A stretch of 64,000 nt of DNA. It comes from Heterohyrax brucei (lineage: Eukaryota; Chordata; Mammalia; Hyracoidea; Procaviidae). The position numbers were made by a program, and so were the translations under genes. Under the pieces are notes generated by a model. The model made no database searches, was not told the DNA's origin, and was given only the letters and a program-made list of their open reading frames with translations. Shown here piece by piece: positions 47,901-50,900 of the stretch (within the stretch, counting starts at the first letter, position 1; every line of letters starts with the position of its first letter). The DNA is taken from positions 9,766,001 through 9,830,000 of the forward strand of contig CM053154.1 in the NCBI GenBank assembly GCA_028571685.1, in the 5' to 3' direction.

Positions 47901-50900
47901 TCCATGTTGTATGGTCACCATTTATGCTGGTCAAAAAAGATGTTTGCAATGAAGATGTTGCTGGTCTTGCAAAATTCTATCATCTGATCCCCGGCATCAT
48001 TTCTGTTGCCAAGGCTGTATTTCCTAACCACTAATCTTTCTTCTTTGTTTCCAACTTTTGCATTCCAATCACTAGTAACTATCAGTGCATCCTGATTCAA
48101 TCAATTTTAAACTACAGAAGCTGGTAAGAATCTTCAATTTCTTCATCTTTGGCCTTAGCGGTTGGTGCATAAACTTGAATGATAGGTATATTAACTGGTC
48201 TTCCTTGTAGGTGTACGGATATTATCCTATGACTGACAGCACTATACTTCAGGACAGATATTGAAATGTTCTCTTTGACGATGGATGTGACACCATTCCT
48301 CTTCAAGTTTTCACTCCCAGCATAGTAGTTCATATGATTGTCTCATTCAAAATGATCAACATCAGTTAATTTTGGTTCACTGTGTGCCTAGGATATTGAT
48401 GTTGATGCATTCCATTTCATTTTTAATGATTTCCAATATTCCTAGATTCATACTCTCAAAGGTCATCCTTTGAGAGCCTTCCAACCTACGGGGGCTCATT
48501 TTACATCACTGTATCTGACAATGATCTGCTGCTATTCATAAGATTTTCACTGACTAATTGTTTTCAGAAGTAGACTGCTGGGCTCTTCTTCCTAGTCTGT
48601 TTTAGTCTAGAAGCTCACCTGAAACCTGTCCTGCATGGATGACCCTGCTGGTATCTGAATACTGGTGGTATGGTTCCCAGTTTGATAGCAACACATAAGC
48701 CCCCACAGTACAACAGACTGACAGTTTCCCGTCTTAAATATCTATTTCCTTTGTTAAAACAGAGACTGTAGTGTAACCTCTTCCACAGGGTGATGTGAGA
48801 ATGAGGTTATGTATAAGGTGCCCACACTCAGCAAATGCTGTAGTGATGTAAGCTACTGTCCCACCACTGTCACCATCAGTGCTGTCATCACTACCTTTTT
48901 CTTGTTTTGGTTCTCTTTCTTCTCCTCCTCCTCCTTCTTCCTCCTCTTCTTGTCCTTGTCCTGTTCCTTCCTCCTTTTCTGTCTCCTCTTCTTGTCTTTG
49001 TTGTTCTTGTCCTTGCCGTTCTACCTCTTTTTCCTCTTGTTCTTGTCTTTGTCCTCCATCTTCTTCTTCCTCTTCCTCGTCTTCTTGTTCTTGTTCTTCT
49101 TTTTCTACTTTTTCTCCTTCCTTCTCTTCTTCTTGCCCCTCTCCTTCTTCTTCCTTCATGTCTTCTTCTTGCCTTTCTTCTTCTTCCTTCTCCTCCTCTT
49201 CTTGATCTTGTCCTTTTCCTCCTCTCTCTTTCTCTTCTTCTTCCTTTTCCTTCATCTCTTCTTCTTGTCCTCCTCCTCCTTCTTCTTTTTGTCCTTGTTC
49301 TTCTTCCTTCTCCTCCTGTTCTTCTTCTTGTTCTTTTCCTCTTTTTTGTTTCTCTTCCTCCTCCTCTTCTTGTTCTTGTCCTTTTCTTCCTTTTTCTTTC
49401 TCTTCTTCCTCCTCCTCCTCTTCTTCCTGTTCTTCTGTCTCCTTCTCTTCTTCTTGTCCTCCCCCTTCTTCTTTTTGTCCTTGTCCTTCTTTCTTCTGCT
49501 TTTCTTCTTTTTCTTTCTCTCCTTCCTTCTCCTCCTCTTCTTCTTGTCCTTTTTCTTCTTCCTTCTCCTCCTTCTCTTCTTCTTGTCTTCCTCCTCCTTC
49601 CTCTTTTTCCCCTTGTCTTTCTTCTTCTCCCTTGTCCTCCTCTTCTTCTTGTCCTTCTCTTTCTTCTTCTTCCTTCTCCTCCTCCTCTTCTTCCTGTTCT
49701 TGTCCTTCTTCTTTTTGTCCTTGTCCTTCCTCCTCCTCTTCATCTTCTTGTCCTTTTCCTCCTTTTTCTTTCTCTTCTTCCTTCTCCTCCTCTTCTTGTC
49801 CTCTTTCTTTTTTCTTCTCCCCTTCTTCTGCTTCTTGTCCTTTTCCTCCTTTTTCTTCCTCTGCATCCTCCTCTTCTTCTTGTCTTTCTTTTTCTTCTTC
49901 CTCCTCTTCTTCTTCTTGTCCTCCTCCTCTTTCTTCTTCCTCCTCCTCTGCTTGTTCTTGTCCTTCTTCTTCTCCTTGTTCTCCTCCTGCTTCTTCATTT
50001 TCCTCCTCCTCCTCCTCTTCCTCATATTTATGATGGTTGTCACCTTCTCCTGGGGAAACAAGACATGCTTAATTTTGGTGCATAAGTTCTCTCGGGGGTT
50101 TCTTGAAAATTCTTCAGGGTTACTTCAAGGAGCGGAAAGCATACCTGGAGAAGAGGTTGCTTTGTCTGCAGTGGAGGTTGCATCTGCAAATAATAAAAGA
50201 ACCAAAGTCATATGTCAGTGGGAAGAAAATGTATATTTTGGTTTGAACAACAGCATAGATGAAGTAGTCCTTATAAAATTAGTGACTGAAACTGAAAACC
50301 AAAATGGGTAGAACCAACACTACAGAAACCCAGTTCTAGGGTGTTTATTTCAGTGTGTTCGCTGGGTGAAAGCTTCACTGAAGGCAACACATACTCCTCC
50401 AGGCATGTGGAGGTGTAGACTCCCAGTCTGACCTTTCATGGGCACATTCCACCAAACTAGGGCCACCAGCAGACTTGATTCCTGCTGAAGGGCTCACTTC
50501 TATGTCTCCAGGTGAACAAAGAAAACAGTAGGCTGAATTTCTAGTGAAAAGGATGTGAGGTTTCCATTTACATTGGGGCTTATACTGTAGATCAAATGTT
50601 TACTTGTCACATGGGAAAAGGGAAAGTTGATCATATTTAACTTAAGAAATTTGGCAGGCAAAAAACATTACCTGTGGGGTTGTCCATTTCTGCAGAGTTT
50701 GAAGGTACATCTGTGCAGAAACAGAGGGGACAGGGCTGAATAATGAGGGGAAGGACACTTGAGTGGGTTATTTTTCATTGAGGTTTATTTTGTGATCAAA
50801 AAGCCCACTAAATAGGCTCATTTTTTGAATGTTGTTGTTGTAATGAGTTGCTGTTGAGTTGATTCCAATTCGTTACCACCCTATGTGGGCAGATTGGAAC

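Follow-up and report, generated by a model that had tools for sequence, protein, structure and literature searches.

In the 64,000 nt of Heterohyrax brucei DNA analysed here (the window), a purine-rich tract within a DMBT1L1-type gene may be a new exon for a very acidic protein block, as suggested by an unbroken reading frame in combination with correctly phased splice sites. The array is derived from GAA, is read in the register of the exons without a detectable shift, and is bounded by a strong acceptor and a weak donor that is in phase. We regard it as close to an even call that this is a giant cassette exon specific to one lineage, grown from a GAA repeat between two DMBT1L1-type stalk micro-exons; for exon use of the tract as such, the chances appear about evenly balanced.

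The host gene and its stalk

The gene that contains the tract lies on the minus strand and shows the domain order SRCR followed by ZP, with Pfam matches to SRCR, ZP-N and ZP-C. The SRCR exon (41797..42108, 312 nt, phase 1) matches PF00530 with an E-value of 1.1e-35. It is followed by a ZP-N exon (38756..38935, limits approximate; PF23344, E 2.5e-7, and tblastn to relatives), a middle ZP exon that includes the start of ZP-C (36946..37332, limits approximate; PF00100, E 6.3e-8; 81% identical to manatee), and the last ZP-C exon with the stop codon (35625..35925, 5' limit approximate; PF00100, E 5.2e-7), which matches the manatee protein nearly to its C terminus. In tblastn comparisons with nine named proteins, eight are about 60-90% identical in their best-matching domains, and the value is lower for the ninth, tenrec DMBT1 (P0081). 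A protein search retrieved DMBT1-like proteins; among the best 120 of 4108 matches, manatee covers 98% of the query region at 78% identity and elephant 51% of it at 81%. With the ZP part alone as query, the best 120 of 127 matches again bring up this mammalian family, some under the names 'putative DMBT1-like protein' or 'putative ZP domain-containing protein'. In a tree of 21 rows, the window sequence groups with Trichechus (92/76), and this pair is joined by Tenrec and a partial Loxodonta sequence (91/91); neither fork is starred. A passage of PMC12936413 places DMBT1, C10orf120 and DMBT1L1 together at human 10q26.13.

Judging by these sequence comparisons, the host gene is most likely an afrotherian DMBT1L1; the repeat families present likewise point to Afrotheria. 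The earlier note had called it DMBT1-like, which holds for the SRCR-ZP family; according to the protein searches and the relatives, it is a paralogue of the DMBT1L1 type and not DMBT1 proper. It shares with mammalian DMBT1L1 and the putative DMBT1-like protein the last SRCR domain, the ZP domain and the 13-residue Ser/Thr-rich stalk units, and here the gene adjoins a CUZD1-like gene. The latter extends over 21729-29362 on the plus strand, consists of CUB pieces (one of them just under the Pfam cut-off) followed by ZP-N and ZP-C, and is convergent with the DMBT1L1-type gene; a hydrophobic stretch was noted by eye near 29.2 kb. Presumably, CUZD1 likewise neighbours DMBT1L1 in the human genome. 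Relatives possess several SRCR/CUB exons upstream of the last SRCR. No further exons of these two types were found on the minus strand between 42.2 and 64 kb, where a single tblastn match at 58.4 kb is at chance level (E 0.10), and the upstream SRCR/CUB part may be situated outside the window.

The stalk was searched for phase-1 candidates bounded by AG and GT, which were scored against units from the named relatives, with the plus strand as control. The minus strand yielded eight candidates and the plus strand a single one, with a score of 17. Of the eight, six are 39 nt long and in phase 1 and have scores from 26 to 46; in gene order they are 53731..53769 (score 41), 51083..51121 (44), 50672..50710 (41), 50145..50183 (micro-exon h; 35, best unit DTTPTSSEAPSSP), 45516..45554 (26; its equivalent is an ATDL-type unit) and 43865..43903 (46), the last of which the earlier note does not list. 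The candidates 61893..61855 (score 20) and 37487..37440 (score 17) were dropped as being near the plus-strand control. Spliced to the SRCR exon, the six micro-exons give a continuous, Ser/Thr-rich stalk of 13-residue units, and together with the open SRCR and ZP exons they indicate that the gene is intact over this stretch. Micro-exon h and the exon at 45554, both proposed previously, resemble units of named mammalian proteins in which their equivalents are adjacent.

Composition and limits of the tract

The candidate Glu-rich exon occupies 48895..50049 on the minus strand. Read from 50049, it begins 95 nt past the end of micro-exon h (50145) and sits in a single intron, with a stalk micro-exon on either side (50183..50145 and 45554..45516). 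Its 1155 nt equal 3 x 385, both ends are in phase 1, and the 384 whole codons are free of stops in the very register dictated by the neighbouring exons. Coordinates, length, phases, the 95-nt gap and the open frame had been given in the earlier note, and our recomputation reproduced them. The predicted composition, described there as about half Glu with Gln, Gly and Lys, is 196 Glu among 384 residues, with 56 Gly, 47 Lys, 46 Gln, 14 Arg and 8 Asp, which amounts to a net charge of -143. At the nucleotide level the tract is 93% purine and about 56% A, and it contains 255 GAA/GAG and 120 AGAA motifs. Compared with pure GAA, 26% of the sites in the array are different, and between 48-nt pieces and their nearest copies the divergence is 18%. 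The tract also contains repeats of a higher order (48947-49938, minus strand), with periods of about 168, 51 and 36 nt that are each divisible by three.

The missing stops are weak evidence of coding and partly trivial, because a strand that is 93% purine seldom forms them: the remaining two frames contain 4 and 5 stops, and by a hand estimate a stop-free frame would arise by chance roughly once in ten cases. At the 3' end, the frame continues open beyond the donor through 48734..48894, where it ends in a stop, and the scan for donors gives two further weak sites in phase, at 48874 and 48865; hence, the 3' end of the candidate exon is uncertain. Pfam reports no family at E 0.1 for the 444-residue frame. 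When residues 1-440 of the spliced model served as a protein query, none of the 7968 candidates scored matched at E <= 0.001, a result that carries little weight since a low-complexity correction was applied; a database protein identical to the query and within the length range would nevertheless have been expected to surface.

Splice sites were scored with a matrix entered by hand. On this scale the 3' splice site ahead of the tract (50050..50069, minus strand), a polypyrimidine tract with CAG, reaches 7.26, a score matched or beaten by 16 of 5058 minus-strand AGs, itself included, so that the acceptor is as strong as had been proposed. The 5' splice site past the tract (AAAG/GTAGTGAT, 48887..48898, minus strand) is weak: scored as AAAAG/GTAGTG it attains 0.63, and 290 of 3498 GTs (8.3%) score equally well on this matrix. 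Among the seven exons with homology support, which run from 53769 to the SRCR exon, donors range from 1.26 to 6.53 and acceptors from 1.93 to 7.14; the tract donor ranks below all seven of the former, and the tract acceptor above all seven of the latter. These seven exons have the phase of the tract.

Frame keeping and the neutral alternative

A serious competitor, to which we give a somewhat less than even chance, holds that the tract is a neutral, GA-rich simple repeat of the intron, which grew by in-register slippage and duplication of GAA units, and that its acceptor is a coincidence or a silenced cryptic site. Such a repeat would present a clean frame as well, because triplet repeats expand by threes and purine strands seldom give stops. 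Repeats of this kind are documented: according to a passage of PMC10901741, intronic GA-rich simple repeats are held silent by SAFB, with masked examples in four mouse genes. The weak donor fits this reading too, whereas the strong and correctly phased acceptor immediately upstream does not.

The two readings can be compared by the way in which the register is kept. Shifts were sought with a three-phase HMM, which at four switch penalties reported none over 1129 nt, and none of 362 windows of 45 nt preferred another phase; a single planted indel was caught in 39 out of 40 simulated arrays. The nearest internal copy kept the register in 366 of 369 windows when these were 24 nt long, and in all windows of 36 nt (365/365), 48 nt (361/361) and 60 nt (357/357). 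The null is a model of neutral growth rather than an empirical control: simulated arrays were accepted if their divergence fell within a range about the two observed values, and the range of indel:substitution ratios was our own choice. In neutral mammalian DNA this ratio takes values near 0.1. Runs with zero shifted blocks of at least 12 nt made up 13.9% of 721 at a ratio of 0.02, a share compatible with the neutral repeat, but 3.6% of 697 at 0.04, 0.5% of 742 at 0.08 and 0% of 758 at 0.12, so that at ratios of 0.04 and above a neutral array would rarely look like the observed one. Judged against this simulated null alone, the unbroken register is what exceeds chance in the tract, and it is stronger evidence for a meaningful frame than the absence of stops.

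The distribution of T in the array likewise speaks against neutrality: codon positions 1, 2 and 3 have 0, 4 and 5, for which the hand-calculated chance of none in nine at position 1 is about 0.026. In an array of this type a T at codon position 1 nearly always makes a stop. Two other comparisons agree with the neutral reading. The share of the minor purine hardly varies with codon position (20%, 19% and 25% at positions 1, 2 and 3), and codon differences between reciprocal internal copies, given as synonymous/non-synonymous, are 0/6 (24 nt), 4/11 (36 nt), 5/34 (48 nt) and 7/27 (60 nt), with 374 synonymous and 708 non-synonymous transition targets. At none of the four window sizes do internal copies show the synonymous excess expected from purifying selection on residues. 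Taken together, these values show no constraint on residue identity; only the frame, and through it the charge, could be under selection. The earlier note had taken the open frame as one of the marks of an exon, and this claim survives in part: the register is unbroken through a diverged repeat, but the absence of stops is partly trivial, and selection is not apparent at the amino-acid level.

Comparison with relatives and origin of the tract

The retrieved relatives comprise 229 database proteins from the best-match lists, many of which are not orthologues. A pattern for the ATDL-type unit equivalent to the exon at 45554 occurs in 11 of them. In eight (four camel rows, sheep, two bats and macaque) this unit directly follows the equivalent of micro-exon h; in two horses an earlier unit stands before it, and in one mole-rat another sequence. 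The pattern missed an armadillo protein (P0135), whose AMDP-type unit comes after a similar stalk. None of the 11 relatives that hold the next stalk unit has an acidic block. Nor is a comparable block present among the 229 retrieved proteins, where the most acidic window of 100 residues reaches 27% Asp+Glu, and in 43 chosen rows no window of 60 residues exceeds 25% acidic residues. In this respect the hyrax gene differs from its DMBT1L1 relatives, none of which, among the matches listed, has a Glu-rich block, and this absence favours a neutral repeat.

The manatee (P0023) and elephant (P0107) models lack a stalk ahead of the last SRCR, where the elephant sequence is aligned to what is intron in the window; the tenrec model likewise has no stalk at this place. 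All three models are thus uninformative on the tract, and those of manatee and elephant suggest that automated annotation tends to miss these 39-nt exons. A literature search found, among the matches listed, no report of a glutamate-rich or acidic block in DMBT1 or SRCR proteins, and nothing that joins DMBT1, SRCR and elephant. To our knowledge, no such acidic block has been described before in the DMBT1 family, and the same statement in the earlier note agrees with the retrieved proteins.

As sources of the tract, two nearby sequence types were considered and rejected. A LINE origin was discarded since none of the LINE-like minus-strand fragments reaches above about 48.34 kb, which leaves some 550 bases between them and the tract; an origin from the 39-nt stalk units was discarded as the ends of the tract, compared by eye, are unlike these units. 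Among ten short strings from the tract ends and the open extension, EPKQ alone occurs in retrieved proteins, namely in three guinea-fowl isoforms. The LINE-like fragments (45740-48342, minus strand) lie on the strand of the gene in the intron downstream of the tract, and we take them to be of the RTE/BovB type; four stretches of this region gave no Pfam family above the cut-off, the one weak match, to Bud3_N (E 0.014), falling below it. Elsewhere in the window, 34045-34251 (plus strand) presumably is a mariner transposase remnant and 60611-61118 (plus strand) an L1 ORF1 remnant; Pfam reported nothing for 34045-34251 or 60611-60928 (plus strand).

Two less probable readings

As in RPGR ORF15, the tract might be an alternative terminal exon, with the acceptor used and the donor not, so that a shorter protein would end past the acidic block and lack both the last SRCR and the ZP domain. 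The frame that stays open to the stop at 48734, the uniformly weak donors nearby and an ATTAAA hexamer at 48427 are in line with this idea, which we nonetheless hold to be improbable: such a hexamer often arises by chance (15 AATAAA/ATTAAA sites are listed for the minus strand between 30 and 50 kb), four short strings from the tail were found in 0 of the 229 proteins, and the ZP domain that relatives conserve would be lost. Least probable, an intronic platform on which the purine tract would bind SR- or SAFB-type proteins and tune the inclusion of micro-exon h suits a very short exon 95 nt from a dense GAA array, and SAFB binds GAAGAA (PMC10901741), but it leaves both the unbroken register and the acceptor unexplained.

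A possible route to a giant cassette exon

Returning to the cassette exon, the following course of events may be proposed. A GAA-type repeat would have arisen in the stalk intron and become a giant cassette exon in one lineage. Its 255 GAA/GAG motifs could act as exonic splicing enhancers, through which SR-type proteins (e.g. TRA2B) might define the exon although its donor is weak; masking by SAFB-type proteins in most tissues would lead to tissue-restricted inclusion. Inclusion would enlarge the mucin-like stalk ahead of the last SRCR by about 385 residues, whose net charge is near -143, and skipping would restore the conserved 13-residue periodicity. Selection would then act on the upkeep of the frame and on overall acidity rather than on single residues.

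Several elements of this model have parallels. PMC10901741 describes giant coding cassette exons with many purine enhancers, over which SAFB and SR proteins compete, and PMC3929626 GAA-rich exon motifs that are detected by Tra2b. Like the SAFB-repressed giant exons of ANK3, ANK2 and CLIP1, which are long, adenosine-biased and rich in purine enhancers (PMC10901741), the tract is long, A-biased and full of GAAGAA-like motifs. Those exons, in contrast, are expressed, and the same source describes their suppression in human and mouse, whereas the tract is a tandem repeat and a candidate exon. RPGR ORF15 is another large, repetitive, purine-rich exon for a Glu-dominated block (PMC4890669, PMC8856954). 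It differs in being terminal, in belonging to a ciliary protein, in its richness in Glu and Gly and in being shown at the protein level, whereas the tract would encode Glu, Gly, Lys and Gln; we claim no homology between the two.

The SR/SAFB biology of purine-rich sequence accounts for a regulated giant exon and for a silenced repeat alike. The weak donor, the lack of a synonymous excess and the lack of a block in the retrieved relatives count against the exon; it is the unbroken register that makes us lean slightly towards it.

If the tract is used, a simple repeat has become a large part of a protein in a single step, and a secreted DMBT1-type protein has gained an extreme polyanionic stalk, for which binding of calcium or cationic ligands would be possible. 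The locus would then also be a natural test of the choice between SR proteins and SAFB, by which an intronic purine repeat is either kept silent or made an exon. Put most fully, and with confidence that stays short of even, one mammalian lineage may have captured a GAA microsatellite as a giant exon that stays in frame, by which a secreted protein of the scavenger-receptor-like kind acquired a polyglutamate stalk of 385 residues with a charge of about -143. Were this capture true, purine repeats would be pre-adapted exons, since they are nearly free of stops on the purine strand, grow by threes and carry their own splicing enhancers.
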